Shown here one piece after another: positions 12,599 through 38,314 of a stretch of DNA of 64,000 nucleotides. The position numbers and the translations under genes are program-made. The stretch is from Arbacia lixula (Eukaryota; Echinodermata; Echinoidea; Arbacioida; Arbaciidae): NCBI GenBank assembly GCA_963669155.1, contig OZ022577.1, positions 10,621,395 through 10,685,394 of the forward strand, in the 5' to 3' direction. The stretch's first letter is position 1. Each line of letters starts with the position of its first letter. The notes beneath the pieces are model-generated. The model was not told the DNA's origin, ran no database searches, and saw nothing but the letters and a program-made list of their open reading frames with translations.

Positions 12599-15500
12599 TC
12601 AGACGCCGGTGCCCTCCATCTGAGACATCCTCTTTTCCAGCTGCAGTATCCGAGCTTGCTGGTCTAGAACCATGTTTAACAGCTGAAAGGTAATAGAGTG
12701 AGCGCATGAGGATAACAAATAAGTAACACCCAAAATATTCTGTAAGAAAGGGAAAAAGGGTTCTTCATTATACATACATTTGTCATAGTATAATATTGAT
12801 TGCAATCAAAGTGTATATTTAAGTACAAATTCATTTCAATTTGATCAAGAATTTATTTTCATGCTTTAATGAATAAGTGAGGTGAAATATACCACACAAA
12901 TATAAAAAAAATAAATATAACACATTTTGATTGTAATTTTACCAGTTGCACATATTCTCATTGAAAGGACTTCCCTGGGTAAATAAGACCATTTCATTGT
13001 TATGTGTAAACTGCAATATGACCCAAGAGTGCAAAATCATGCTCCTCCTTCTTTTTCTAAACACTTTAACACAAATGCCTTCAAGGCAAATGTGCATTGC
13101 ACACAGGAGTGTGATGCCATTTTGGGTATGCTGCACATTCCATTCGTAATTTTTTTTTTCAATATGAGTGATCAATTCTCAGAGGGTACATGGCACAATG
13201 TGCTTGTTTCATGAAAGGAGGGGCTTGAAAAAAGCCCCGTAAGCAATATTTTTTCCCATGCCTCCTCCTCTTCCTTCTCACTAACATCCCCATCTCCCTT
13301 CTCACCTTCTGGTTCTCGTGCTCTAATTGCCTGACCCTATCCCTGGCCAGCCCATCTTCCTACCCCCTCCTCTCTACTACCATCATCCCATCTTCCTCCT
13401 CCTTCTCCTTACCAATCTCATCCCCATCTCCCTTCTCACCTTCTGATTCTCATGCTCCAGTTGAGTGACCCTATCCCTGACTAGCTCCACCTCAGCATCC
13501 CTGGCCAGCCCCATCTTGAAGGAATCGCCCGACTGGGACAGCTCCGCAAAGCTCAGCTTGGGCACAAAGTGTGGCCGGTGGAAGCCGCTGTCGGAGCACC
13601 CCGTCCCGTCCGTCAGATCTCCCCCACCCCTGGGGGGAGGAGGGGAGGGCTCAGACTCAGGAGCCATGGGGGGCGGGACGGGCGTAGGGTCGTCGTCCTC
13701 CCTCCCTGGGGGTAAATCGTCCAGATCATTGCTGTTGGTGGACCCTGTCATGGATGGCATGGGGATGAACTCCGCTTTCTCTAGCTCCTGTGAGAGAAAA
13801 AACATTAGAGATGCAGTTCTTGATGAGAATGGAAGGGTACATTAGAGTTTAGAGCAATTATTACAAACTATGACAAAAATTAGGAAGATTCAAGAGTACA
13901 ATCAGGCAAGACAGAACACAATGCTTAATCATTTTGGTACAAAAAGTATCAATCATATTTTCATAGTCTGTCCTGTTTCTACAAATTGGGAACATTGCAA
14001 TTACAATGTACGGAACAAGCGATTGATTGATTACGCATGTAACTTTTGTTTGTATGACCACTCAATCAATACACATATATCATATGGAAGAAAGTATGAT
14101 TCATTGCTCACTCTAATGAAGTACACATGAGACCTTCTCATTGCTGCAAGTTACTTAAGCTGCTATCGTAAAGAGGGTCATTATATCATATGGTTATTTT
14201 AATCTCACTTCTTCACTAGGTTGAATTTCAATACTCCCCAATCACAGCCAGGGAGGCGTAGTGCTTTCTTCAAGTCACATGTTTACGTTCACATTGCTCT
14301 CACCACCCTCCTCCCTCTCACTGGTCTCATTCACACTTCTCCCTTCACACACGGTACTTACATCCACAAGCCAGGGGCATGGTGCTTTCTTCCTATCCAT
14401 TCACATTGCCCTCACCACCCACATCCCTATCAATGGCCTCGTTCACATTTCTCCCATCATATAGAATACTTACATACTTCTCCCTTCACACACAATACTT
14501 ACATCCACAAGCCAAGGGGGCATGGTGCTTTCTTCCAGTCTATTCACATTGCTCTCTCCACCCTCCTCCCTCTCACTAGTCTAATTCACACTTCTCCCAT
14601 CATGTACAATACTTACATACTTCTCCCTTCACACACGGTACTTACATCCACAAGCCAGGGGGGCATGGTGCTTTCTTCCAGTCCGTTCACATCACTCCCA
14701 TCATCATCCTCCCTCTCACTAGTCTCGTTCACACTTCTCCCATCATGTACAATAATAACATACTTCTCCCTTCACACACGGTACTTACATCCACAAGCCA
14801 GGGGGGCATGGTGCTTTCTTCCCGTCCATTCACATTGCCCTCACTACCCTCCTCCCTCTCACTGGTCTCGTTCACACTTCTCCCATCATATACAGTACTT
14901 ACATCTACAAGCCAGGGGGGCATGGTGCTTTCTTCCAGTCCGTTCACATCACTCCCATCATCATCCTCCCTCTCACTGGTCTCGTTCACACTTCTCCCTT
15001 CACACACGGTACTTACATCCACAAGCCAGGGGGGCATAGTGCTTTCTTCCAGTCCGTTCACATTGCTCTCACCACCCTCCTCCCTCTCACTAGTCTCATT
15101 CACACTTCTCCCTTCACACACGGTACTTACATCCACAAGCCAAGGGGGCATGGTGCTTTCTTTCAGTCCCTTCACATTGCTCTCACCACCCTCCTCCCTC
15201 TCAATGGTCTCGGTCACACTTCTCCCATCATATAGAATACTTACATACTTCTCCCTTCACACACGGTACTTACATCCACAAGCCAGGGGGGCATGGTGCT
15301 TTCTTCTTGTCCATTCACATTGCCCTCACTACCCTCCTCCCTCTCAATGGCCTTGTTCACACTTCTCCCATCATGTACAATACTTACATTCTTCTCCCTT
15401 CACACACGGTACTTACATCCACAAGCCAGGAGGGCATGGTGCTTTCTTCCAGTCCATTCACATTGCCCTCCCAATCCTCCTCCCTCTCGCTGGTCTCGTT

Positions 15501-18500
15501 CACACTTCTCCCATCATGTACAATACTTACATACTTCTCCCTTCACACACGGTACTTATATCCACAAGCCAAGGGGGCATGGTGCTTTCTTCCAGTCCAT
15601 TCACATTGCCCTCACCACCCCCCTCCCTCTCACTGGTCTCGTTCACACTTCTCCCATCATATAGAATACTTACATACTTCTCCCTTCACACACGGTACTT
15701 ACATCCACAAGCCAGGGGGGCATGGTGCTTTCTCCTTGTCCATTCACATTGCCCTCACCACCTCCTTCCTCTCACTAGTCTCGTTCACACTTGTCCATTC
15801 ACACACGGTACTTACATCCACAAGCCAGGGGGGCATGGTGCTTTCTTCCAGTCCATTCACATTGCTCTCCCCACCCTCCTCTCTCTCACTGGTCTCGTTC
15901 ACACTTCTCCCATCATGTAGAATGCTTACATACTTCTCCCTTCACACACGGTACTTACATCCACAAGCCAGGGGGGCATGGTGCTTTCTTCCAGTCCGTT
16001 CACATTGCCCTCACCACCCTCCTCCCTCTCACTGGTCTCGTTCACACTTCTCCCATCATATAGAATGCTTACATACTTCTCCCTTCACACACGGTACTTA
16101 CATCCACAAGCCAGGGGGGCATGGTGCTTTCTTCCAGTCCATTCACATTGCCCTCACCACCCTCCTCCCTCTCAATGGCCTCGTTCACACTTCTCCCTTC
16201 ACACACGGTACTTACATCCACAAGCCAGGGGGGCATGGTGCTTTCTTCCAGTCCGTTCACATCACTCCCATCATCCTCCTCCCTCCCACTGGTGCCGTTC
16301 ATTCTCCTCCCGTTGCCGTACCCCTCGCTGGTGTCGTTCCCCGAGTCTCCCGTGCGGCTGCTGCTGTCCTGGGAGCTGTTCTCCCTGGAGGGGTACGACG
16401 GCTGGTCGCCGTTGGCTGGTGTACCTGAGGAGGCCCCCACAGCAACGGCGGCTGCTGCTGCCTGGTCAAGACCACTCTGCTGGTCAGCTTCCTGGTCAAA
16501 GCTGGCTGAGAACACACTGTCCTGGCTCACCTGCGAACTCACTGTCGGTGTCATCACAAAAAAAGCAATTTGTGCATTTACGTTGAGCAGTTATGATATA
16601 CGTATCCCAGACCGCATATCAAAAGCAATAACTTCAAAGCACCCTGACTTTATCTGAGCAGGGGGCTGTTTCACCATGCTGTTCTTAAGCTACGAATGAC
16701 TTTATGCATGACTGGTGACCCTCTCTTGTGCTTTATCAGATTTTCAATGATTTTGATTCCCATCAGCTGAAGTTGAAATCTAATCTTTATAGATTAAAAT
16801 TCTTGTTGCTAACAAGTGTCTGAATACAAGGTCTATGGTTTGTCAAATTTGATTAGGATTGTTGTTAACACAGGAACAAAATCTAATTTAGCAAAAGGGT
16901 AACCAGACGTGCGTAACAATGTTTGTAGCAAATAGCTTGGTGAAACACCCCCCCCCCCTGGAATTTGATATGAAAAGGAGCATCCATTTCAGTAGCTTAA
17001 CCATCTTTGTACCATTCTGTAAATTAGTCAAACTTATTCATACATGTGAGTGATGATAAAGATGCTCCTGTTCAAATGAATGACCCGACCTCTACATTCA
17101 GAAATAATGTCAACCTGGAATGTGGTGGAAGCAACAACCATGTCATATCTTATCTTTCTTTGCTTTCCTACTTCCGCTGACAATAATGTCATTTCATCTC
17201 TAGTGATGACGATCTTACCTTTGCTACTGGTGCTATCCATTCGTGGCGATTGGTACCTCTTGGATTTGGAGATCACTTTTTCTTTAAGAAAGAAAAAGAA
17301 ATTAATAAAAAACACAACTGGTAATCACTCATTGTATCAATGGCATGTGATTAGTTGTGCTAGGATCATTTGATCACTTCTGTGTGTATTACAAGCCTTG
17401 ATGGATATATTGACTGCCAAAGATACCCAAGTAAGTTTATACATACATGCAATTCTGAAAGATAGGACTATCTAGCCCGCTATAACATTTCAACTGGCCT
17501 ATGTGCAAGACTAGTAATACAAGTTACACATATCGTATTGACCGGCGTATAAGCCACATGTTTTTTTTTCTTAAAAATCATGCGTAAGTCGGGGTGCAGC
17601 TAATACACAGCATTAGCAAAAGTTGGGAGAAGTTTACACATGTGGGACCATACGTTGTGTGACAACATTCAACAACAAAATAGATGACTTTGTTAGGCAT
17701 CAAGTGTGACACAATTGACGTACCGCTAATATGATCTCAATCACATCATCAGCATAATTACCGGTACTAAGAGAAAGCACCAGGAGTAGTATTTGTCCGA
17801 GACAACTCAAAGATACCACTAATGAGAAAGCTACAGCTCAAACTCTGTTAGATGGGGGCACCATTGTTTCTTTGATCTGCGTAAACTTACGTATTTCCAG
17901 GGTGTTTTTTTTTTTTCAAAGTGCATGCTCAAAGTCGGGCTGCGGCTTACGTGCGGGTGCGGCTAATACGACGGTCAGTATGGTAATCATTTTCCTCATT
18001 GGCAGAAACGTCTCAACTGGAGACTGACACACACACACACACACAGCAAATAAAATTAAAATGTTTGAATTTCCCATGATTCCCCTCGCTAGCCTCCATA
18101 AGACTAGGAGTCCACTAAGTCCCCAACTACTGTATGAGCTGATATTTTTGTGAGGGTTTTATTTTTGCAAATTTCGCGAATTGCTGTCTTGTCACGAATT
18201 TAATAACACATAAAAACATTGCCACATAATCCTGATCAATAAGTGCATGCACCTCACACTGCTCCATGCGTACATGTAGAAGCTTTGTTAGTCTCATGAT
18301 GAAGTACGCGGTACCATATATAATACTGGCAATGCATGTGGTCGACCGCTAGCTAGCATAGCATTGCAGCGCACCATCAAGCGCTGCGATAAAATGCAAG
18401 TACATATGTCTACATATGATAGCAGAGCAGTGCATGAACATCATAGCGCGAACGCTATCCATACGCAAAAATATTGGCTTCTAGTGTGTCACCACTAGAA

Positions 18501-21500
18501 CTAGGAAGCAGAACACTCAGCCCAAAGTTACACCAACAGATGAAAAAGTTGACACTTCAGCAAATTCAGAGGATATCTCGAACATACTGAAACAGTTGCT
18601 CACTGATGATGAATTCTAGAGACTACTTCAGCAATGTGTGAGCAAGATCGTATCCAGCTCAATCATCGAGGTTCGAGAGGAGATCGTCAAGCGACTTCGG
18701 GAAGTTGAAGACAAACTCGAGAAGCAGGAAAGTTTGTTGTTTGATCTACAGAATGAAGTTGAGAAGAATCACACCAACATAACAGCACTTGAAGCAACTG
18801 TTACCAAGATGTCCAACACTATCCAGTCTCTGACCAGGTCGGCAGATGACATCCAACAGTACAGCAGGAGGAATTCAATCAGAGTCTACGGTATCCCGGA
18901 GGTGCCAGGAGAGAACACAGACGAACAAGTCAAAGCTTTTCAAAGATTTTAGAAAGGATTGTTGCCAATAGATTACTTGTATACCTCGATAAATATAACT
19001 TACTCAGTGATTGTCAATATGGCTTTAGAGCAAACCACTCATGTGAACTCGCTTTGATTGATGTACATGATTATTTAATGTCAAATGTTCAAAAAAAGCT
19101 TCATTCATATGGTATCTTTATTGATTTAACCAAGGCATTTGACCTAATTGATCATAAAATTCTTCTATATAAATTGACTAACTTTGGTGTGCGTGGCATC
19201 TCGCATAAATGGTTTACTGAATATTTGTGTAATCGTTATCAATTTGTTTCATATAATTCTTTTAGATCGCCAAATGCAAAGATGACTTGTGGTGTGCCCC
19301 AAGGCTCTATTCTAGGACCATTATTGTTTTTGTTATATATTAATGATTTGTGTAAATCTTCATCATTCTTCCATTTTACTCTATTTGCTGATGATACTAC
19401 AATCATAGCATCTCATGAAAATATTGATAGACTATCTGAAATAACTAATAATGAATTGTCAAAAGTTACTCAGTGGTTTAAAGCAAATAGATTGACTATT
19501 AATACTGAAAAAACCAAGCTTTTGTACTTTGGAAATAGTAAATCATGTGATGTTTCCAATATTGAAATCTTTATAGATCACGTCAAATTGTCATTCTCAC
19601 CTTCAGTAAGATTCTTGGGTATACTATTCGATAACAAATTAAGTTTTGATGATTATAGAAGAGAAGTTAGTAACAAGATATCAAAGAATGTTGGACTTTT
19701 ATTCAAACTGCAATCTGTGTTACCTGAAACTCATCTTTTTATGCTGTACAATTCATTTGTTTTGTCTTATATTCAATATTGCAATGTTGTTTGGGCTAGT
19801 ACAGCACCTACTAAGTTAGATACCATATATAAGTTACAGAAAAAGGCTCTACGAATTTGCACATCATCTTCTTATATTTCTCCATCCAAGCCACTTTTTC
19901 TTCGCTTAAAGACTTTGAATATTTTTGACCTCACCAAGTTTAAGATAGCACAGCTAATGTATCGTAATGAAAATAACTTACTTCCTGTTAATATTGCAAA
20001 TTTCTTTTCGTATAATACCCAATTTCATAATCATAATACACGTTCTAGTTCAAAATTGCATTACCATCAGGTTAAAACAACTAAAATACTTCAATTATTT
20101 AGACATCAAGGTCCTATAATTTGGAATTCTCTCAGTTCAAATATAACTTCTTCCAGTACAATAAGTTCTTTTAAAGATAAACTGAAAATTACCTTTTTAT
20201 CTAAATATTCTACGTAACCGAACGTAAATTGTCCAAACGATTTAATATCATTGTACATGTATGTATTATAGGGTGTATGTGTGGGTGTGCCGTTGTATGA
20301 CTGTGTGTATGTCTGCTATTATTTATATGTTTTTTGTTGTCTTTTATATGTAATCAATTAGGAAAATTACATTTTTGTAACAATTGTGCATTTATTTATA
20401 TTTTATATGTAAGGGAGCTGCACCCTCAAACCTGTAAAGCTTTTTTTTAAAGCTTCCATTTTCATTTTCTCTTTACTTATATGTACAGTGAATGTTTATA
20501 CATGTATTTTATGATTTTGAAATAAAACCCATTTTGAATTGAATTGAATTGAATTGATATACAGTAGTTTCCAAGCCAATGATAAACCCACTTTACATTA
20601 TCTTCGTCAGCCTTTCTGCCAGCACTCACCAACGATAATGATGGTGTTCCAGTACCTGCAGGACAGGCCCGACACCATGTGCAGTGAGCCAAAGACAGGG
20701 CGGGGTGTTGGGATGAACTGCTTCTTCCTGTGGGAGGCCGTCAGCTCGTCGCAATAGCCCAGCCGCCCGCTGTCAGTACTCCCAAACGAGAAGATCTGGT
20801 TATCTGCGAGGAGAGAGAGAAGAAACATGTATCAGAGAAGTGTCAGGAGCTCTTATGTCTCATCAGCTTTCCCAGCATTTCAAGCAAACAAAATTCCCTG
20901 CTTTTACCCTCACTTTTTCCTGATGAAGTCTCAAAATTCGATGATAATCATTTCAACTAATTTCCAGTTTCACATGTTTTCTTTGTTGTTGCAGTGAACT
21001 ATTTGCAGTATAAAATGCAACAAAATTTAACAAAGTCTGACTACTTTTGATTTTGGGGGCAATCGAAATTCTCTAAATTATCATTGATTTGAGGCACTTT
21101 TATCAAATTCCCTGACTTTTCCCTGACTAAAAAAAAAGTAAAATAGTTTTCCCTGATTTCCCTGATGGTCTGGGAATCCTGTTAACGAAGAAGATCCTAC
21201 GTTCAAATCTCATTTGTGATTACACTCTTGTGGGAGCATAGGTGGTCTAGTGGTTGGAGCTCTCACGTCCCATACAATAGAACATGGGTTCAAACTCCCT
21301 TATTGCTCACACCTTGGAAAAGGTAGTCAGGCTTTCCATTTCACTGTACAGCTGGAAACTTCAGGTACAGCCAGTGCAACACTGCCAACATTTGGCAATC
21401 TTATATGTACAAGATAAGGTTCGCGGATGTTTCAATCTAGTTGTTTGTTTCTTACGTGATCCTTTTGGCGACAATATCCGTTCAATTTATTCAACCCATC

Positions 21501-24500
21501 TGACAGTACCGGTTAGTAAAATGACATTGCATATAATACCAACAAATAGTCATGGTTTGGACCACAAAGAAGCAGTGTTTGTAAGCTGGAACCCTCTATG
21601 GAACACAAAAAAGAATAACTAGCAAGTAACCGTTATAAAGTGACTTACCTGTTGTGGCGACGATAGTGAATGCATCCCCGCAGCTGGCAGTGACCACCTG
21701 CTTGCCGGTCAGTTCTCCCTTGACCTCACAGACTCCAGACCGCCCCTTCGTGTCACCCACTCCCAGCTGCCCAAACTGGTTGGACCCAAAGGTGATCAGA
21801 CGTCCCGTGCCTGTACAAACAAGGTGGTGTGTACATGGAGGTGTGCATCAAACTAGCACTGATTTATTCATATTCACTAGGGTTCTCAGCATTTCAAGAA
21901 AAAAAATTCTCCGATTTGGATGTTGTTTTGATGTGCGACAAAATATAACAAAGTCAGACTGACGACTCTTGATTTTGAGGCCAATCAAAATTCCCTGACT
22001 TTTCCTGATTTGAAACATTTTTATTAATTTCCATTCAGCCAAAGCCCCATTTCTGCTACAGGGAGGTTTGTTTAATCATTTGTTGTTGTTTTTGTGACTG
22101 ATTGAGTTCTGGGTTTCATTTTAACCTATGACATCTGACCTGATTAAGATCAACCTCCTTTTTAGGGCAAGGATTAGGGTTAGAGTTAGGATGTTTTAAC
22201 AATAACCCAAGGCTAACAGTAAACAGCTTAGAATTATGAAGACCTCTAAAACCCAGGATGCCGATATTTAACTGTCAACAAAAATTGAAAGTGGCATTTG
22301 AGGAGGAAATGTTTTTTGATAGAATATCTTGGTGCTGACTTACTCTCGACAGCAGCGGAGTGGGTGTGGCCTGCAGACACCGCTCTGATATTATAGCGAT
22401 TGAGAGGCTTGACGATGGTGGGCACGTCCTTATATGGTATGTCGTAGCACTCCTGCAACACAAAATAGCAACCGGTTCATAATCAAACTCAGTTTAGAAT
22501 CACTTCCACGGAGCGCTCTTGAAACACAAAACAGTAATTGGAGCCATGGTGCATATAGATTTTTAATTATTGTAACTTACCATCAATGGTAACTACCATG
22601 GCAACAGCCACAGAGCTCTCATTATTGCACCTGTTGCCATGGTAGTTACCATTGAAGGTAAGTTACAACAATTGAAAACTTATATGCAAAATGGCCCAGG
22701 TTATGAAAGAAGAAACTTTAATCGCTAGCCCTGTAATATTTCTCTGTACATGGGTATTGCCTTGGTACACATGAATGATTCAGTGCTAATAATCACAAGT
22801 TTAAAAAATATCAACAACATATACATGTACTATGTCTGATTAGCCAGTTTGCCAGTCTTTACCTGTTTTTTTGTTTCTTCAAAGTTATCCTTTTATTAGG
22901 GTTTCAGTTTCCTTTAATCATTTAAGATTCATTTTAAATATCATTTCAACATCATTGCCACAATCCTAATCATTTGATTCGCTCCTTCTACCTTGACGAT
23001 TCTTTTCCTGAGGCCGGCTGTGACGGTGTTGAAGCCCAGTCGGTTGTGTTCGTTGCTGCCACATGCGTACACCTTGCCGTCCGTAGTCACAAAGAAGGAC
23101 CCTTCTGACCCAGCACAAAGCGACCGGATCACCTTCTTACCAGGAAACGTCACCTAGGGTGAATCAGGGGAAGGCCAGTTTATTCTGGAAGAGTCTTCAC
23201 ATAAGGTAAAGGAAATCATTCTGTTCATAGCGACATGTGTATAAAAACATGTGTATAATGAAATATCCTTTAACCGATTTTCGTCAAACCTTCACTAATA
23301 TGTTTCTTCTTTTATTGAATCCAACATCATTTCAGGGCGGATTATCCCTTTAAGGAAAGGAGGAGAAGTGGTAATGAGAACAGCATGTAATCATAGCATA
23401 ATCCAGGTTCAAATTTGGTGTACTTTCAACATTTTGAGAAGATTCTTTCCTTGAGGGTATTTTACCAAGCTGTTCATAAGCTAAGAATGACTTTATGCAT
23501 GACTAGTGACCCTTTTTTGTGCTACATGAGATACCCCAATTTGTTCCTGTTTTAAACGATTTCCAATAACAAATTTATCAAACCATAGACTTTGTATTAA
23601 GACACTTGTTAGCATCAAGAATTTTAATTCATAAAGATCAGATTTCAACTTAAGAACAGCTTGGTGAAAGATCCCCCTGGTGTCCGAAAATCAAACAAGA
23701 ATAGGACCCATGGTCATGGTAGCACAGCATTTGAATGATTACAGGTCCCGTACACTTGACCACTTCTATTCTACTCCTTACATTCAAAGTCAAGCCAAAA
23801 TTAAAAACATGTATTTAGTTGCAAATATGATATTCAGTGCATTATGAACAGCTCGGTGACTACCGATAGTCCCATTCATACCTTCTGGGGTAGCTTGTAA
23901 TCCTCCTCATCACCAACGCCAAGCCTCCCTGGAGAGATGGGGTGAGAATGAATGACAGCATTGCAAAAAGGGGTACAAGGTGCACACTCAGATGCCAACC
24001 ATTATACTCCAACCCCCAAAAATGAACACTACAAGATGGTAAAAGTCCACAAAACATTGTACTTTACAAGAAAACATTTGTGTTTTTTATAAAATACAAA
24101 CCAATATCAATGCTTTGTAATCAAATTCATGAAAGAAATCATTTCATACTTTTCAAGAGAACAGAATTATTTTTGGTAATCTCTTTTAAAGTAACACATT
24201 AGGAAATGTTTTTTGGATGAAACAAAATACTGTCTTGTTTTTGTCTTTCTTTCATACTCAATATGATATAATAGTCCTACATATGTAATTGGAAGCTCTA
24301 TTGAGCACAAAAGAGTGACATCATATGAATATGTTGTCAAGACAACTGGTTCTTCACTATGTGGGTGGAAAAAACAGCAGTGATCACGACCTGCAAGACA
24401 ATGTCAGACCAGTGAAACTCTCACTTATTTGATGTTGTTTAGAACTTGAAACCTGCATAACAATGGATATGATGAGAACAAGGCAGTATTCTATTTCATT

Positions 24501-27500
24501 CTAATGGGTATCATACGACATACAACATGCACAACATACAACATGCACGCCAGTCAAAACAACCGGATGAGACCACTCACCAAACTCGCCGCATCCCCAG
24601 GAGTATACATGCTTCCCCTCTGTCAGGGCCAGGATGTGGTTGTCTCCGCACGAGATTTGAATCACCGGCCTGCTGGCGAAGAAGGGCACCTCAAAGGGAC
24701 TGCGCGCCTCCTCCTCATCGTACTCCTCATCATCGCTTTCTGGTTCGTAGTCCTCACCTCTCCCCAGACAGCCGTAGTAGTCGGACCCAAAGGTGTAGAT
24801 CTTGCCCTCGTCTGGGTTGAGGGGGAGGAACAAGATGTGAATGCAAGTACAGTCATTAAAGGGAAAGTTCACCCTGAAATTAAGTTGGTTTCAATCTCGC
24901 CCCCGTCTGGGTTGAGAGAGAGGAATGGGATGTGAATGCAAGTACAGTTATTAAACGATTAGTTCACCCTGAAATCACATGTAAGTTGCTTTCAATAAGT
25001 TAAGTTAAGTCGACATTAAGTTGACAAGAAATTCGGTTTCAGTAATTACAGGGATAGTGCACCCCAAAATAAAGTTGGTTTCAATAAAAGCAGACACATG
25101 AAAAAAAAATATTACTGAAAGTTTCATGAAAATCCGTCAGAGGATAAGAAAGTTATGATCTTTTAATTGTTGATTTTGTGATGTTACATGCGAGGTGCTC
25201 TCCTATATGTTGTGTAAATTTTTTTTTATTAAAGTCCATTTTCTCAAAAAGATGCACATTCTTTTACCTGGGCATCTGATACACCATGAGAAACATGTTT
25301 TTACACACATTTCTACATGGATAAAATGTATTCTGTTGTCAAAAACAGAAAGGGAGCAATTTATGGAATCAATAAAAAAAAATCATATCGCACACACAAC
25401 GCAAAGAAATTTCAAAGGATCATAACTTTCTGATCTTTCTCATCCTTTGACAGATTTTCGTCAAACCTTCACTTATATGTTTCTTTCATGTTTCTGCTTT
25501 TATTAAAACCAACTGAACCTCAGGGTGGACTATCCCTTTAAAGTCTGGATGTGTCAAGGCCTTTCTCAATCAACCATTTACATATACATTTACATTTACA
25601 TATAAATTTACATATACATTTACATATACATTTACATATACATTTACATATAAATCTTGTACATATGATATATTTGGGTATTTACATAATAGTAAAAATG
25701 AATAAAAATGGACAAAAGCCCGCTCCAGCTGACCTGTGACACAGGCGGTGAACTCTTCTCCACAGGACACTGCTTTGATGGGAATGCCTTGGAGCCTCTC
25801 CACCTTCTTAGGAGCCTTGTAGCAGGCTGTGTCTCCATGCCCCAACTGACCCACCAGCTCCTGACCACCATGGATGTTCTGGGAGACAAAGGTAAGATAT
25901 AATAGATGGAACATTCATGTAAACTATATATATAGCCAATGACCCATTTACTGACCGGTACATACTGGTGATCAGGCGATGTTTCCTTCCGAAAATTTAA
26001 TTGGCGCTTATTTCGGAGCTGCAAAGGTTCTAGATATCTAATTTCGTATTCTAAATGGTAATATTTCCCCAAAATATTGAAAATACTAAAGTTTTTTTAA
26101 GATTTCATGGCAATTTTGATAAAAATTCTGGAGTCTCAAAGTAACTGTGTCAATATTTGCATGCAAATTAAACACAAAAATTCAGGAAAATATGCAGTGA
26201 TCTCATACTTTGCTGAATTCTACTAACTGTTTTGACACCGCGCATGGCTGTTGAGCTGACGCACCCATAATAAAGCACTAGGAATCAAATTTTGAACCTT
26301 CCCACTTAGGAATATCGTGATCGTGTGTGGGGTATTAAAGAAATCCCAGCATTTGTGCAATTAAATTCAAGACGGATCCATTTGTTCAGCCATTGTTGTG
26401 AAACCATAAGTCAGGTTGCCCTATAATTTTCACAGTGTGTTTTGTGTAATATTGTGAACAAATTATAACATAGACTGTAATGATTTGAGCTGAGAAGGAC
26501 AAAGTAGAGTAAACTGTCCTATTGCACATACAACTGACCTGCAAGTTTTTGATCACCATGAACATTCCGTCATACAGAAGTAAACTGAATCAACTGACCT
26601 AAAAAAAGACACTCCTAATACATGATTCAGTTCATCTTGAACTTATTTATCTATATGTTTGGTGTGGGGGCTTTGTTGGTTCATTTTTCTTTTTTGTTTG
26701 AGGAGGGGTACAGGGGGGGAAGGCTGGGAGGAGAAAGATAAGGAGGCTGGTTGAAGACTTACTAACTGGTGACATTGTCTCACAATAAATGTCTTGACAA
26801 TAGGCTGATTTGCAGGTTGTCTGCGCCATATACAGCACATGCCCATACTGCATAGCAAACAGTCTTCACATTTCACACTGACTAATCAACTAACAAGGGT
26901 CTGTGACTAGTACAGAGGTGGAGGAGGGGGAGGTGGGTGGAGGAAGAAGGCGAAGAAGAGGAAGGAAGCGGGCGGGGCGTGACATTTGGAAGGCTCTGAC
27001 TTACCGCCCACGTGAAGAGTTCCTTCTCCACGGTGACAGCGGCGAAGTGGGCTTTACCGGCGGCGACTTGGACAGCACTGTTGCCTGCCTTGAACGTCTC
27101 CAGCTTGAGGGGGGTGAGTCGGCCCCCTCCCCAGTAATACACCTGCACAGGAGGGCAATGAAGGTGAGAGGATAAGGGGTAGAGAGAGGGGCAGAGAGAG
27201 GGGCAGAAGGGAAGACAAGGCAAAGGGGTACAGAGAGAAGAAAGAGGAAAGGGAAGGGGGTGGAAACACAGGAGAGAGTGTGGAAGAGAGAGGGGGAAAA
27301 AAAGAGAGGGTGGGGAAAAAGGGGGACAAGGGAAAGAGGGGGAGGGAACAAGGGAGAGGTTGGGGGAAAGAGGGGAAGGGACAAGGGAGAGGGGGTGGAG
27401 CAAGGGAGAGGGTGGGGGAAAGAGGGAGAGGAAAGTCAATGAATAGAGAGGAAATGATGGAGGTGGAGGAAGGGAGGGGGAGGGAAAGAAGAGAAAGGTG

Positions 27501-30500
27501 AATGAACGAGGCAAAAGGACAAGGGCAGTGGAAGGAAAAATAAGGCAGATAACAATAATGTCATTCCATATTTCTGAAATAAACTAAACAAAAGTATAAT
27601 ACACAACAAATTTATATAAAGATCTATTAAATGACTTGATGAACATTTTCAGGTTGATGGCAGTTTATCAAAGTAATATGACACAATAAATGCATGTATC
27701 TCCACATTCCATTTTTCACACGCAAAGCATAAACACATCATCAGTGGGGTGATAAACCTACAATAACAAATGCTAGGGCCATCTAGGGAAAAATAGTTGA
27801 AGCTGAATGATGCGGCCACCATGTTTAAAGAATACTTAATAAATTAATTTAAAGATAACTAAGATGTGTACCTGACTGTTGGTGATTGTTACGACAGGGA
27901 CTGTTTCAGCTTGGAAGCTGCTTTGACTTCTAGCCTTCCTCACTGTTCCGTTCAGCTCCCAGATTCTCCTCTCTCGCTCCCTGCAATCGACAGACAAGGT
28001 GAACAGGGGGTTAAAGGGGATTTTAGATTTTCTTTGCTGGCTGCGATATATATCGAAATTGCGATCAATTAGAGGATCATTAGGTGGTAACGTTATCGGA
28101 ACTGTGCTGATTCCCTAGCAATGTAGAAATAAACTCAGGATCTCAAACTTGTTTTGTATGTTCATTTGAAATATATCTTTGATGTAATACAACTAAATCT
28201 CTGCCCAGTAGAACCCTTTAACTCTTCCTTTGCCAGATACAATGCTGCTCTATGTGATTTGTGTCTATAACTGGGGGGGGGGGGGGGGGGGATACACAAA
28301 TGACACATAAAGAGTTAAAGGGATAGTCCACCCTGAAATTAACTTGGTTTCAATCTAAGCAGGAATATGAAAGAAACATATTAATGAAGGCTAAAGGAAA
28401 TTCTGTTAAGGGTTGAGAAAGTTATGAACAAGTTTTTTTTTGTGACATCACGTGTAAGGTGCTCTTCCATATGTTGTGGAATGTCCCTTTTCTCAAAAGG
28501 ATATGCATCGCCTTATGTTTGCATTTGATACATCATTAGAAACACATTTTTACTTGCATACCTTGATGAAAAAAATCCTCCCTCCATAAAAATACAAAAA
28601 GAGCAATTCATGGAATAATAAAGCACCTCACATGTGACATCACATGATTGAGATTTCAAAAGATCATAACTTTCTTATCCTTTGATGGATTTTCGTCAAA
28701 AGTCACTCATGTGTTTCTTACATGTACATGTATATCTGCTTCAAAACCAACTTAACTTCAAGTGAACTATCACCATAATACTATATCATGCAAAAGTGAC
28801 ACATCACTATAGAAAGAAGAGGTTTTAGTCAAGAAATCAATCAAAAGGTTATGAAACCCTGAAAATAAGTTGAATTGAGCAAGTACAGCAACTTCAGAGA
28901 TTCAGACAGGGAAAAGTTTGAGATAATGAAAAGTAGAACAATGAAGTTATTAGTGTTAAAATATCTCTAGTCTCTAGCCATGTTATCTTGCTCTGTAAAT
29001 CCAAGGTAGACAAGTAATGCTCTAGGTATTGTTTTGTTTATCCGTGGTATCCAAGAACAATGAAAACAATGTGCAGTTCATCATTGCCGGCCAATGGAGT
29101 TGCCCATGAAGGTTAAAGGGATAGTCTACCCTGAAAATAAGCTGATTTTATTAAAAGCAGAAGCATGAAAGAAACATACAAGTGAAGGTTTAAAGAAAAT
29201 TTCTAAGAAAGTTTTGATCTTTTAAAGTTTTGATTTTGTGACACCTTATGCGTGGCGCTCTCCCATATGTTGTGTACAAGTTTTTTCTTGAAAATGTGCA
29301 TTTACTCAAAAAGATATTCATCTTTTTACCTGTGCATTTGATACATAATTAGAAACAAGTTTTTACACACATATATCTATGAAAAAAAATAATTGTTCAT
29401 CAAAAACAGAAAAAGAGCAATTAATGGAATTATACAGCACACAACATATGGGAGAGCCCCTGACGTCACAAAACTGAAATTTCAAAGGAGCATAACTTTC
29501 TTATCCTTTGACACATTTCCACTATGTTGCTTTCATGTTTCTGCTTTTATTGAAACCAACTGGATTTCAGGGTGAACTATCCCTTTAAGGTATGTCAGCA
29601 CCTTTGGCCAATTTTTTTCTCTGATGTTATTTTATTTCAATTCAATGTATGACCAAGGTTTCATTCTCCGTCAGTGAATATCTATAACTAGCTCCACAGA
29701 GTCATCTAGATGAAGATGATTATGTTGTCAAGAAAATAAGTCTCTTCCATCTGCGATTATTCTGTAAAATGATATTGCTGTGTTCATAATGCAACACTTT
29801 TGCAATTTTACATTATTGCAGTAGTCTTAAGTTGGACATGTATGACCTAAGCCAAGGATATGGTACAAACTATTCACCTCTGACCTCTAAAAACGTCAAA
29901 GTGTATAAGCTTCATTTCTCCTCTGTAAATTACCTTTGCACCAATGTTCCTAAAAATTATCAATCAGGCTTATAAAATACTTAATATACATTTTCAGTTT
30001 AGAAGGCAGCTGACTTATAATCTTTGATGCATTTAATCCAACATCTAAGAATTTAATATGTAATATGATGCACAACATATACCAACATTAGAATAAATCC
30101 ATTCAGCTGATCCCAAGATTAAACAAAAATTAGACAAAGTTGATTGAACTCTGACCTCTGAGGGATTTGACCTACATCAATCCCTCTGTCTTCCTATTAT
30201 ATGCGAAGGACTAAGTGCAGTAAATATGTTGAGAGGTTTTAGCGATATTTTGCATGATTGAACATCTTTCAACAGGTTCAATGACCTGAAACTCAGATAG
30301 ATATGGCCGTAAATCCAATTAATTCATCGGTTCCACATACTACATGTGTGTTCAACTATGAGGTTTGAAAGAAATCTGCAAATTGGCCCCTAAGATATAA
30401 ATAGGCAGACGGCAGATGCATAGATACATGTAGCTGCATAGACAAGCCAAAGTATGATAACCAAATGCCAATTTTTGGTAGAGGCACAAACATACATGTA

Positions 30501-32315
30501 CATAGGCTTATGAAATGATTATACATACATGCATCCTTTGTACATACAGGTTTATCAATACATACATACACATACATACATACATACATACATACATACA
30601 TACATACATACAACGTAAGATAATGCTCATCAATATATATTACAAATGACACTATTACAAGACACCAAAGTAATGTAGTCGCATACTAGCATGACAACAT
30701 TGTACAGCTTCATTGACATTATTCAACATCCATTAACAATTCAATTGTTGAACAAACTTGCCAAAGGGGTTTATTCAAGCATTCATAGCAACTGCAAATT
30801 CCTACACCCCCTGTATACACTTGATATCATCATGGGAAAAGCCATGCAATTCTCAATACAGACAACAATATAAGCATTTCAATACAAAACAATAAATAAC
30901 AACAATATAAGAAACAAGAATGGTTAACACAGAAGTTATATATGTTTGTATGTCTTGGATAAAAACAAAAAGGTTGCCAGGTTAAGAGAAGGGCAACTTA
31001 ATAGCCATGGTCCCCGAACCCTCCACCAAAGACCCATTACAGGCATCCAAGACAGGAAATATGCACAACATTCAACAAATTAAAAACACAAGACAAGTAA
31101 ATATGTACACTTTTTGCTAGGCTTCAATGTTTCCTCCAGTAAATACAGATAAACCGATTCCTCATGATCTAAACAAATGCTATTCGAGACGGGTTTTGTC
31201 TACATCGCATGACCATTTGGAACGTTTGAGACAAAGCACGTTATAGACAATCATTATCTCGTAGTTGATGTTAGAAAGAAATACATTGTAAGATTGAGAA
31301 TTGTCTTACTTTTTCTTGTCACTGAAGATAGGCTTGGCCATGATCTCAGCAGCAGTGGGCCTGTTCTCTGGATCCTGATGGCAAGAAAGAAGCCAGAATG
31401 AAGAATAGCAGTGCTTCCCTATCCCACCTCATCCTACTGACTGATCAAAATATCACAAGTCTAATCAACACCAAACAATACATGTTTCCATGTCAGCCAC
31501 CGAATCTAGGGCATTAAAAAACAAACCCACGGACGGGACGGAAAGACGGCGGGGAGGGAAAAAAAGCACAAAACACACTTTCCGCATTTAGCACACACAG
31601 AGAAAATAGGAATGAGGGATTGCTAGAACAAATAGCCCAAGTATTGTGGATATATGGGCTGTTGCCATGGCAATAATGTCTACATGTCAACACCAATTAA
31701 AGCATGGGGGTGTTCAATTACTCTGAGTCAGCCCTGACTGAAACGGTGCAGATTTGTCATAAGGTCAGGTCCTCTTTGCCATCTCTCACATGTGGTCCTA
31801 AATCTGGCTCTTTTCCCCCTTTCCGCAGCTGTATTACCAGCCTCTCCCCTCCCTCGCATTTGCCCCGTCAACCGTTTCCAAACTTTGTTGGCACCCCTCA
31901 GCTTTTCCCCCCTCGCTTTTTCATGACAGTATGCACACTGTGCTTGAACTACAGGGGAGACAAACACGCTGTCATCAATCAGTTGCTACCTGACTAACTG
32001 AAATGCCAAGACAGCCTTAATGTCTTTCCCATTAATTTAAAACAGGGCAAATGTTGGACAATCACCAAATCTATTTCCTCTCTGTCGCGTCTCCCCCTTC
32101 CAACTATGACTCTCTGTCTCTTGACCCCCCCCCCCCCCCTTCCCTCTTTCTCTCTTGTTTTCTTTTTGTTTCATCTCTCCCTCTCTCCTCCCTCCCTTTT
32201 TCTGCTTCTCTTCTCTTCACTTAATCTTTCTCCCTTCGCATTTTGGCCCTCCCTTTTTGTTCTACTTCCTTCTTCTTCCCTTCACCCCCCTCCCCTTATC
32301 TCTCTCTCCCAACTC

Positions 32316-32348
<33 letters not shown>

Positions 32349-35300
32349 GTCTCTGTCTCTGTCTGTCTCTCTCTCTCTCTCTCACTCTCTCTCTCTCTCT
32401 CTCTCTCTCTCCCCTTGTCTCTTCCTATCTCTCCCTCTCTCTCTCTCTCTCTGTCTGTCTGTCTCACTCCCTACTTTATCCTTATATTTATTCTTCTACT
32501 TCTCTTCTCCTGCTACTCTGACTCTCCCCTCCCCTTTTTTTATCATTCCCCTCTCTACCTTATCTTTCCCCTTCTCCTTGTTGATTCTCTCTTTCTCTCC
32601 CTACTTTCTTCTCCTCCTTTCCTCCCCCTCCCCCAAATCTCTCCCTCTACTCCCTCTCTCTTTCCCTCCCCCTCTACTCCCTCTTTATTCCTATCCCTCA
32701 TCCCCCTTTCCCCTCCCCCTCCCCGTCCCCCTCACTCTCCCTCTCCCTCTCCCGCCCCCCCCCCCCTCTCTCTCCCTCCCCCACCCCCACCCCCTCTCCC
32801 TTACTCTCATGTTCTACTTTCCACTAAGCCAATTCTCCCTATAAGTAAGCTAATCCTTGTCAAGGACCTGTTCATTCCATTCCTGCCATTGCCAGCTCTC
32901 CACCCACCATAAACAGACATTCTTGTGTAGCAGCAATTATCTGGCACAGAAAAGCCAAAACTGAGCCAAAACCCGTACCATGCTACAAAGTCACACCTAT
33001 CAATATGCACTTCTCAAGCATTTTTTCTCCCTTAACTTTGGCACATTCTTCACATAAAAAGCTGGAAAAAGGTAGAAATACAGGTAATCAATGTATCAAT
33101 ATAACTAACATTTAAACATAATTCAAATAATACAACTTTCATACCCAGCTGCTTGTTCAGTATATTGGTCACATTGTACGTGTCAATAAAATACTTTAAA
33201 AAACGGACAGGTGGTTCAAGAGTACCACCGGGCAGATTTAATTCTCTTACATCAGAGATACATCTCAAATGAACATACAAAGCAAGTTTGAGATCCTGAG
33301 TTTATTTCTACATTGCTAGGGAATCATTTTTGATGTCACGTGTCAATAGGTCTGTCAGGGCAGTTCCAATAACAATTCCACGTTGCGATACTCTAATCGA
33401 TCGCAATGGCGATATATCGCAGCCAGCAAAGAAAATCTCAAAACTGTTCGTGTGCGCGCCACTCACAATCGTTTCCTCTGTGCGATAAATCGCTTAGGTT
33501 CAATAATAACGTATGCATATTCATCTCGCTGACATGCAACAAAGTGGGGCGCTTAACATTGAGATAGCCGATGTTCAGCACGGAGTATTACTTAATTGCA
33601 TTGTTTTCAATTTACAGAAAATATCATACCCCACAACAGTATGATGGATATGCAATTCTAGTACCAAAACAACGAAACACTGGTTTTGTAATGCCAGGTG
33701 GTCCCCTTTAAGTCACTGTCCATTTAGGAGCAGATGCTGGTTCAAATCCCTCTGGTTCCAAAACATTTTTTCTGACTTGTTTTCCAATCATTTACAGCAT
33801 GGATGCTATACTTACTACCGGGTATATGCCTACATATCATTTTAATTGAAAGTGCTCCACAATTCCCTTTCACTAAAATCTAGCCAAAATAAAATCAGTT
33901 TAATTTGTGAATTTTACCTGTCCCTTAAAAAATATGTTCAGCTGAGAGTGATTTCAGGCCACAGCTTGCCCCAATCACAGTAATCTTAAACTGGATTGGT
34001 ACATTCAGCATCGTTCACACAGTTTCTCTACTCCAATGATGCAATGGGGCATCTGGCCATCTAAATATCTCTTAAAGATCTTGGGGGGGGGGGGGGTTCA
34101 CCACACTGTTCTTAATCTAATAACGACTTTACGCACAACTGGTGACTCTTACTTGTGCTAAATCCGACACCCCGATTTGTTCCAGTTTCAACATAGTGGA
34201 AATTAATTTCAAACAATCCTTATCAAATTTGATCAATCATAAACTTTGTATTCAGACACTAGTTAACAACAAGAAATTTTAATTATAAACATAACTTTTT
34301 TCATTTCAGTGACAGTAGCTTCCTAAAATGTCAAGAAAATGGCAATAAGAGATAATGATAGACCATTTCTTATTGTCAGTACGAATTATGAAACATAACC
34401 AGGCTCTCTGACTTATTTCACACCTAATCAAAATTACATACACTTACAAACCTCCTTTCAAGTAAAAGCTTTATCTGAGGATTTCAAAACAATTTTGTGA
34501 CATGTAACTCCTTTGATGCCACAAAAATGCTCTTCCTATGGGATATACATGCACTACTGTGTACAAGAATGCACCAACCAGACTAAAAGACTTATCATTG
34601 AACTTACCTTTTCCAGAAGCTGCCTGACAAGAGCATTCATTTCTGCGCTGAATTTTTTGTCGATCTCACCGATGTCCTTCTGAACAATGCCCCACACTAC
34701 CTTCAACTGATTCTGTAAATAGATGCATTTTTCATAACTCGTCATCAATCTCTACAGGTGGGACTGAAGCTTCACTCAGAGAGGTACAGAGAGAGGAATG
34801 TGTTGCAGGGTAACCATAACTACAGGGTAAATACACTTCACGGAACCATGAAAGTATATTAAGAACTTAAAGTTACAAGTTTCTTATCAAACTGACTTTA
34901 CAACCATAAACAATTATCTTTACACAAATACAAATGTGATGCTCACAACATGAAAGTCCATACTTAAATGAATGTAAAAAAATCTGAGGGTTATAATATA
35001 ATATCTATCAAAATAGTAATTACAGCAAATTATGTTCTCTGCATATATGTACTTGAAGCAACAGCCACAGATTTGAGCCATGGCTTCGGTTAAGACAATT
35101 TACACATTGAGACAATTATGACTCGTCACCCTTTTAGTACTGCCCCCATGAAAAAAAAATGACATTTGAACACTAGGATCAATCCTGCCCTGCCTCTGAA
35201 AAACAAACATCATCACCATCGAAACATGAACGCACTGTTTGCATTCAAATGCATTAATGAGTCAAATTGAAACTAAAATAGCATTTTATTATCCTTCACC

Positions 35301-38273
35301 ATGTCAGCATGACCATTGTTCAACTGCATGAGTCGTACACATTTTGTAACTCTCATTTACTGTACGCTAATAACTCAGCACATGAAATTTTTGTTTGCAC
35401 AAATACAAAATGAACTCTGGTCATGGTGTAACAGTTTGCAATATATCTACACAAATATGTTCAAAATAAGGTAATATGACATTTCATTGAAATGGAAGTA
35501 TTTGGGTGAGAAGTCCACTTACTGAAGCCTCGAACACACGTCGTAACGTCAGCAGCTCATACAACACACAGCCCAGAGCCCAAATGTCACTCTTAGCATC
35601 ATATCTAGATAAAAAAAACAATCAAAGGAGCATCCACTTTAAAACAAAGTTCTGATGATTTATTAAACATATATACTTTAAATGTTGTTATCATGTTTGA
35701 TGATGGATGTAGCCTACTTGTCATTCGTTACAGCTATCAATAACAACATTGTACATGATACCAAGTGTTAACAGGTTGTAACAACTCAATAACCAATCTA
35801 AATTTACATTTCTGAATGAAGTTAAAGGACAATGAAATCCTCATAATACTGTAAGTTGAATTGAATGACAGCAACAAATCACAGAAACAAATTTAACATT
35901 TGTATTTCATAAATTGGTTCATGTCTTTTGTATTTTTGTCATTTAATAGTTGTAAGTAACTTACTTAGAGAGAAGCCTAAACTTGGACTTGAACTTGAAC
36001 ATTTAGGATACATTTCTCTGATTGATTTTTCCACTTAAGATTTCTCAAAGAAAAATGATTTGATGATGAGTCTTGAGCGTGTGAGTACGTGTGTAGAACT
36101 TACTGTTGCCCTTTGACCAGCTCAGGAGACATGTAGAAAGGAGTTCCAACAATCTGAAGATCAATCAAGGACAACAAATATAATCATTTCTAAAGTAAAA
36201 AGAGTACAACACAACCCTGCTACATCAAACCTCGTAAAAGAAGGCATCATGTATATAGTTATACCACACTAACATAAAATGGACGCACCAGTAGTGTGTA
36301 AGAGACCATCAGGCAAATCCTTTAAGAGTGGTAGTTAACTAGATAAAATCATAAGTTGCAATATAGACCTCAGTCAGTGTCCCCTCCTCAGAAACCTCAG
36401 TTATTTAGTTCCATGAATACTATTACGTGTATACATGGTTTAGGTTCATTTGCCTGATGCAGCTATTAGAGACTAGTGAAACGTAATGACCGCCCGCAAA
36501 GTGTAACTTACAACTTTGCATTTTTTACAACCAATTCCATTAACTAATCTACAATTGTTGGTTATTGATACAAATTAAACAATACATTACATATGAAACT
36601 CACCGTTTCTGCCATTTTGTCTTCTCCCAACACTTTCGAGATGCCAAAGTCACCTAGTTTTATCAGGCCCAACTTTGTCATGAAGATATTTAGGGTTTTG
36701 ATGTCCCTGATGAAGAAGATACAAAGAAAAAAATACATGTAAGAAGTTAAATATGCTCACTGTAGAAATAATAGTTCTAGACATAGTACCGTTCTTGATT
36801 ATAATGATGATGACGATAATAATAATCATCATAATCATTATCATATCAACAAAGTGCAAATGTAACATACATGTAACTCCACACAGAATGTCAAGACAAA
36901 AATTGACACTTTTATACAATATTTGAAAGAAGTGATCAACCTTCAGTGGATAGATTTGCATCAAGGAGTTTAAATTATAGATAAAAAGGACCCATTATTT
37001 CTACATAATATCATTTTTGTGCAAGAATATTTCCATTTTTAAAATAAAATCATGCGTAACACAGGTCATTAAAAAGGTTAAATTATTTCTACATAAATCT
37101 TTTACGGGTATGAATATTTTTGTAATTGAAATGAAATCATGCATAAACAGGTCTATAAAAAGGACCAATTATTTCTACATAAATCTTTTATATCCACAAA
37201 TATTTTGGTCATTTGAATGCAATCATGCATAACACTGGTCACCAGCATGGAGGCATCATCAAAGTCTACAGAATGATTGCTCAAAATTCCACACTATCTA
37301 GGATTGACATGCACAAACATAAATATAGATCAAATTATAACCCTTGAATATGGGTCTCCAAATCTCCAGATCTGGTCAAAACAGCTACCACTGTTTCAGT
37401 ATAGTACAACACGGTGTCACTTTGGCTTGTGGTCACTATCCTCTACTTTCAGTTTTACTGACTTTTCTGCAAGAGAAACTTCTTCTGCTTGACGCTTTCC
37501 ATCACATGCTATTCCCACAAGTACATCAGAAAATATCCTATGTTTTCCTTAGAGTTTTAAAGTTGTTTTCCCATCCATTTGCTACTGCATAATTCTGGTT
37601 GATTCGTACATATCAGAAGTGGGTATAACAACATGCAAAGAGATAGCAAGATAAGTGATCATTTTAGAATGAAGAAATAGCAATGCCTTACCTGTGAAGA
37701 ATGTCAATGTCATGAATATATGCAACAGCTGAGATTGTTTGAAACATGTACCAGATCACCTCCTGAAAAGAATACGATACATATGATATACATTAACTTT
37801 ATGTGCCATTGAGACATTTTTTTAATTGGTAATACATGCAAATCTCATAGATCAGCAGCATGTCTGGTATACAGTGTTAACCCTTCCTGTACCAAGCAAA
37901 ATGCTGCTCTATGGGATTTGTGTGCATTGCTGGTAACAAAATACACATACAGCACAAAAGGGTTAATCATTCTATCCAATGATACATTCACATTTCTATA
38001 ATCAAGCTTGTACTGTATGGTACAAAGTGAAACTCACATCCACACATCTCTATCTACAGGTAAGAAGGGAGGACAAAGGAAGAGGGTAGAGGGGGAGTGG
38101 AAGGAGAGAAGGAGAAGATGGTGGAAATATAAGAGAGGAAAGGAAAGACGGGAGAAGAATCTTTGGTAGGAAATACATGTAGAGGAGAAGGTGAGTTAAA
38201 GAGGGGAAAAATGGAGAGAATGAGAGGATGATAGAAATGATAGATGAAGGGAAAGAGTGGAAAAAACTCTTGA

Positions 38274-38314
<41 letters not shown>

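Follow-up and report, generated by a model that had tools for sequence, protein, structure and literature searches.

What becomes of splicing when a minisatellite grows across the end of an exon and sets one splice donor after another ahead of a single acceptor? The question is raised by the NEK9 gene of the sea urchin Arbacia lixula, which lies in a window of 64,000 nucleotides (contig OZ022577.1, here C2, positions 10621395-10685394) of a 607-Mb genome in 590 contigs. In a tandem array at this gene, the first repeat on the exon side consists of the end of exon 20, as modelled, with its GTAAGT donor, and the next acceptor lies beyond the array at 13787. The reading favoured here, at a probability of roughly 70%, is that the array results from minisatellite growth over the exon edge and is mostly a tolerated by-product, the inner donor being the one used.

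The exon 20 array of NEK9

NEK9 was modelled by a frame-constrained search for splice sites, with the border between exons 21 and 22 corrected by hand; the splice scores, for donors and acceptors alike, use general weights. The start codon and the exact borders of weakly scored exons are choices of the model. The 22 modelled exons (47100 to 12599) splice into one open frame of 995 amino acids, the coding exons being 47-348 nt long and the introns 450-4353 nt. With human NEK9 as the query, tblastn found pieces of the kinase, RCC1 and tail regions in gene order on the minus strand, and Pfam detects Pkinase and RCC1 repeats in the modelled product, which has the NEK-type architecture of kinase, RCC1 repeats and long tail. 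The tail motif ELENAEFIPMP is present at the exon 20-21 junction, both in the genomic tblastn and in the joined reading, as judged against the human sequence. The spliced junction aligns to PGWLRK^ELENAEFIPMP of human NEK9 (a caret marks an exon border throughout), and on the strength of the long tail and its motif we take the gene to be NEK9 rather than NEK8. A sequence search of the tail against Protein Data Bank chains gave no matches at E <= 1.

The repeat unit measures 114 nt, or 143 nt where it carries a 29-nt insert, with single steps of 113 and 141. In its 114-nt form it consists of the last ~86 nt of exon 20, the donor GAT^GTAAGT and the first ~28 intron bases, and on the basis of the gene model the array includes the authentic donor of exon 20. 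The layout described in an earlier note on this DNA, with a unit made of the last exon codons plus the donor and many donors standing before the one acceptor at 13787, is borne out by the gene model and the array anatomy. The 15 near-identical GTAAGT donors of that note are found as 15 positions (the A series), but only 14 of these are GTAAGT; the one at 15559 is ATAAGT, and 13 of the 14 A units other than the exon copy keep the intact hexamer. The coordinates that it gave, 16209, 16095 and 15952, are six bases off, the first G of each donor standing at 16215, 16101 and 15958.

Fifteen also falls short as the full donor count, a second series having been overlooked. Nine units contain the 29-nt insert, which resembles a second, diverged copy of the sequence around the donor, and eight of the nine inserts retain a B donor (6 GTAAGT, 2 GTAAGC), the ninth having lost its donor, near 14759. 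In total, 22 donors of the form GTAAG[T/C] face the acceptor at 13787. A third donor-like series, gtg^GTGAG[G/A]GC, occurs at eight places in the array and is absent from the exon copy; five of these sites score 4.1, the same as the A donors, and the other three 3.6.

Fourteen donors of the array carry the same nine bases, GATGTAAGT, in a near-native exon context, and the sequence between donors is purine-rich and enhancer-like. The exon 20 donor is itself of ordinary strength, ranking 11th of the 21 NEK9 donors. Donor-like sites scoring at least 4.0 number 20 in the 1970 nt of the array (authentic donor counted), against 14 in 29,106 nt of other introns, an excess beyond chance. Substitutions, small indels and insert content distinguish the units, which have a mean pairwise identity of 89%, tail unit included. 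When a 201-base query from the array was compared with the 607-Mb genome, 14 matches were returned among the best candidates scored, all of them inside the NEK9 array.

Table 1. Features of the NEK9 locus, in window positions; individual donor and donor-like sites are given by their first G
Feature	Positions	Strand	Remarks
NEK9 gene	12599..47100	minus	22 modelled coding exons; 995-aa product with kinase, RCC1 repeats and tail
NEK9 coding exon 20	16216..16541	minus	final ~86 nt supply the exon portion of repeat unit 1
NEK9 coding exon 21	13440..13787	minus	acceptor 13787, top score in intron 20 (5.6)
Tandem array	14246..16301	minus	15 units that have an A donor position, and a shortened tail unit that lacks it
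Authentic exon 20 donor	16210..16215	minus	GAT^GTAAGT, first G 16215, by the model
Second A donor	16096..16101	minus	114 nt downstream of 16215; in frame, +38 aa
Altered A donor position	15554..15559	minus	GT changed to AT
12 more intact A donors	14356..15958	minus	15958, 15815, 15702, 15416, 15273, 15130, 15016, 14902, 14788, 14645, 14502, 14361; all lead to an early stop
8 intact B donors in 29-nt inserts	14468..16072	minus	16072, 15929 (GTAAGC), 15673, 15530, 15387, 15244, 14616, 14473
8 gtg^GTGAG[G/A]GC sites	14297..16160	minus	16157, 16014, 15758, 15615, 15186, 15072, 14415, 14303
Two-copy tandem duplication, 134 bp, over exon 21 donor	13259..13487	minus	identical donors CAGAAG^GTGAGAAGG; exon ends 13440 and 13306
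Two-copy tandem duplication, 95 bp, over exon 13 acceptor	24792..24978	minus	acceptors 24811 (model) and 24906

Frames, stops and acceptors

Intron 20 has 32 donor-like sites with a score of at least 2, and each was joined in silico to the acceptor at 13787. The full frame is kept by two of them, 16215 and 16101, the latter with 38 additional residues; the other 30 lead to a stop at codon 892, 901 or 902, at least 286 nt before the last junction. For the 20 of the 22 GTAAG[T/C] donors that give an early stop, the distance is at least 341 nt. A stop that far upstream of the last junction is sufficient for nonsense-mediated decay (NMD) under the usual rule, and these 20 outer donors are predicted to be poison donors, producing an early stop followed by NMD. 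In outcome, the donors are not equals. The suggestion that the array generates isoforms fits one alternative donor, the in-frame site at 16101, but not the others of the sites spliced in silico, which run into early stops.

Coding of the array by simple read-through was considered and rejected past unit 2, since an in-frame TAA comes with the first 29-nt insert. There are 222 AG sites in the array, of which the best as an acceptor scores 1.0 (14904) and the next -3.3, against 5.6 for 13787; in intron 20 as a whole, the runners-up to 13787 are 13867 (1.1) and 14904 (1.0). The site at 14904 has a peculiar setting: in unit u11, a change at 14902-14904 makes TTGTAG two bases before the GTAAGT of that unit, placing an acceptor-like site and a donor back to back. 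A 2-nt exon running from acceptor 14904 to the u11 donor would cause an early stop. Recursive splicing, or the creation of new exons within the array, was judged unlikely, 14904 being the only passable site among the 222.

Duplications at other splice junctions

Tandem duplication into two copies also affects two further NEK9 splice sites, the donor of exon 21 and the acceptor of exon 13 (Table 1). At the exon 21 donor, the frame is preserved by the site nearest the exon body, and use of the outer one brings a stop after codon 986, which lies 77 nt short of the last junction; at the exon 13 acceptor, the site nearest the exon body is again in frame, and use of the outer one runs into an early stop after codon 439. 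This recurrence of an in-frame inner site and an unproductive outer one supports the view of the exon 20 array as tolerated growth, as does the finding that tandem duplication is common in the genome. Evenly spaced samples of contig C1, 200 kb in all, contain 11 tandem duplications, including one element that is present in two identical copies.

Kinase exons elsewhere in the genome provide a small comparison set, consisting of 20 exons taken from 40 short ones that were picked by eye among 132 genome matches to the kinase domain. With a laxer identity cut-off (0.78) for this sample, tandem duplications were found at five of the 20 exons (L034, L037, L047, L048 and L049), and at least one of the 20 has a duplicated donor: at L034, an exon with Pfam Pkinase that we take to be CDK-like, a 137-bp duplication (527-764) carries equally strong donors in both copies. 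Among the 20, exact exon ends were located for L034 only.

Of the five tandem duplications found in the window, three include a NEK9 junction (P = 0.0027 for random placement, with only the 42 NEK9 junctions counted), and with the array excluded two of the other four still do (P = 0.024). When the 42 NEK9 junctions are pooled with 40 assumed for the 20 kinase exons, four of the 82 lie in duplications, against 0.52-0.74 expected (P 0.002-0.007); leaving out the array gives three of 81 (P 0.015-0.038). These expectations were derived from the density of duplications in the C1 sample or in the window, with the unit length taken as 115. The sample is small and the question was posed post hoc, and the enrichment of duplications on splice junctions is suggestive only.

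Genome-wide, three occurrences of GGTAAGT at steps of 90-119 nt were found at 288 places, against 1204 in the reversed-letter control (overlapping matches, both strands); the pattern counts sequence alone and misses the NEK9 donors, in which a T precedes the GT. Arrays with donor heptamers are common and not enriched, which counts against a special link to splicing. The same pattern picked out a long array at C1:14669989-14672006 (G000), with units of ~39-40 bp that each start GGTAAGTTCAG in the matches listed.

Among other features of the window, a 157-bp tandem repeat at 42886-43404 belongs to a family that is also present at L028 and L048 (91.5-98% alike), and this one family links three of the compared tandem loci (W_42886, L028 and L048). 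A reverse-transcriptase open reading frame (ORF) of a retrotransposon (Pfam RVT_1; 18850-20217, plus strand) lies within NEK9 intron 18, and an ORF with a MoaC domain (Pfam PF01967; 62371-63180, minus strand) presumably represents a MOCS1-type gene.

Origin of the array, competing readings and known parallels

If the array grew as proposed, a tandem duplication would first have copied a piece of ~114 bp across the border between NEK9 exon 20 and intron 20. Slippage or unequal exchange, along with a 29-bp partial copy that brought its own donor, would then have made this a minisatellite, grown within the intron. Each unit keeps the exon end, the purine-rich sequence, which may act as an enhancer, and, with one exception, the donor, and in an array without an acceptor of strong score splicing would be mainly a choice of donor for exon 21. 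The innermost donor, 16215, is expected to be used in most transcripts and to give normal NEK9, while leakage to 16101 would add 38 residues and leakage to the other 20 GTAAG[T/C] donors would give an early stop and probably removal by NMD. After duplication of an exon edge, the original mRNA can still be made as long as splicing keeps to the site closest to the exon body, a preference that a choice resembling exon definition would satisfy. The array would thus be a mostly tolerated by-product, with a cost set by the strength of the inner-donor preference.

The variation among units bears on this history. Units u11 (14902) and u13 (14645) have four variants in common with the exon copy (columns 36, 39, 43 and 44) that are confined to these copies, as well as three (33, 41 and 52) that some other units also have, a pattern that would result from exchange within the array. 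No clear lag and no simple order of growth emerged from the distances between units. Over units 2-15, one private change falls in the nine donor columns, where the average of the unit would predict 2.25, and among the nine-column windows of the 15 units 14% by all changes, or 32% by private changes, are as low or lower. Across these 15 copies, conservation of the donor columns does not significantly exceed that of the unit's other columns. Neither competition among the donors in vivo nor the decoy or splicing-tuning role proposed in the earlier note is favoured by this sequence evidence, and there is no good evidence that the donors have been either kept or purged by selection.

Several points weigh against tolerated growth. 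By the weights used, the outer A donors match the inner one in strength (4.1). Those for acceptors are rough, and the acceptors modelled for exon 8 (1.0) and exon 20 (-2.7) are no better than 14904, the former equal to it and the latter below it, which leaves 14904 conceivable as an acceptor. With 15 copies, selection that keeps or purges donors stays compatible with the data. An enhancer between competing donors can favour the intron-proximal donor, here a poison one (PMC5585400). Finally, longer alleles of a variable number tandem repeat (VNTR) in human ABCA7 are associated with reduced expression and increased skipping of the next exon, exon 19 (PMC5954066); because of this, such an array need not be harmless, and a cost to NEK9 is possible.

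The enhancer effect is also the starting point for a regulatory role, in which the 20 poison donors would form a joint splicing sink and the balance between SR proteins and hnRNP A1 would set NEK9 output through alternative splicing coupled to NMD. SRSF1, or exonic splicing enhancers, located between competing donors are reported to promote use of the intron-proximal site, with hnRNP A1 promoting that of the distal one (PMC5585400), and the array has purine-rich sequence in that position, early stops from 20 of its 22 GTAAG[T/C] donors, and just one broken donor among the 14 A positions outside the exon copy. However, the genome-wide data of that same report, in the portions drawn on here, did not clearly confirm the between-donors effect, and the single private change against 2.25 expected is no significant conservation of the donor columns; we regard this role as unlikely. 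A broader proposal also looks quite unlikely to us, namely that tandem duplications hit splice junctions beyond chance in this genome, that a nearest-to-exon-body rule makes them harmless, and that NEK9 exon 20 is the extreme case, its spare donors being a poison-donor sink that reads the balance of splicing factors.

The remaining readings have less chance. Regular use of 16101 would yield NEK9 with a 38-residue insert repeating the PPWLVD motif, and the 114-nt step is indeed in frame and free of stops; but 114-nt units are open in that frame anyway until the first 29-nt insert, so that the openness of the step alone is not evidence of selection, and an isoform-making function is very doubtful. 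It is highly improbable that the donors mainly hold the U1 small nuclear ribonucleoprotein and shield the intron from early polyadenylation: there are 22 U1-type sites within 2 kb, but the sense strand of intron 20 contains no AATAAA and one ATTAAA (14203), against 30 and 26 in 12000-47100, and for this reason there is little within the intron to protect. Inflation of the copy number through misassembly has a similarly slim chance, since copies that differ in substitutions, small indels and insert content (89% mean pairwise identity) argue against simple assembly stutter, and the array lies on a 39.9-Mb contig.

The statement in the earlier note that no NEK9 gene with this layout had been described may hold; no NEK9 case was named among the matches listed in a search of open papers, which is weak evidence. 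The same layout has been published for human ABCA7 (PMC5954066) and, according to a one-sentence summary, for IFI6 (PMC4526556). In ABCA7, as described in the portions of the report cited here, a 25-bp VNTR of intron 18 starts at the exon 18 donor, and like the NEK9 array it thus begins at an exon's donor. The donor one VNTR unit downstream gives a minor, out-of-frame, NMD-prone form (2 +/- 1%, going by order of listing) with a share independent of VNTR length, and early-stop transcripts rose on cycloheximide (PMC5954066). The two cases differ in that the ABCA7 unit is 25 bp, begins at GT and is intronic, whereas the NEK9 unit is 114 or 143 bp, includes ~86 nt of exon and often has two donors; the second donor is in frame in NEK9 and out of frame in ABCA7. 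In addition, the effects of length on expression and exon skipping are measured ones in ABCA7.

The minisatellite of IFI6 (6-16, G1P3) likewise offers several donors: two downstream repeat units act as donors and give three mRNAs (Turri et al. 1995, as summarized in PMC4526556), the donors being usable in IFI6 and seen at the sequence level in NEK9. In a potato RdRp gene, a tandem duplication spanning an exon-intron border led to intron gain (PMC4974935). The potato event made a new intron, its acceptor side inherited from the duplicated border, whereas in NEK9 the donor border was duplicated and no new acceptor stands out as strong by its score. This kind of arrangement is already known from ABCA7 and IFI6, from which NEK9 differs in its long, partly coding unit, in the doubling of its donors and in its frame logic. 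The IFI6 unit is reportedly 12 nt long and gives in-frame steps; by that figure the NEK9 units are about ten times longer, and they are mostly frame-breaking.

For annotators, the locus is a caution that tandem arrays can straddle exon ends. Duplicating a splice site is a classic experimental design, and the NEK9 array amounts to a natural version of that experiment, a test of choice among identical splice signals. Counts of the junctions formed by each donor would show whether inner or outer sites win, and how use falls off with distance.

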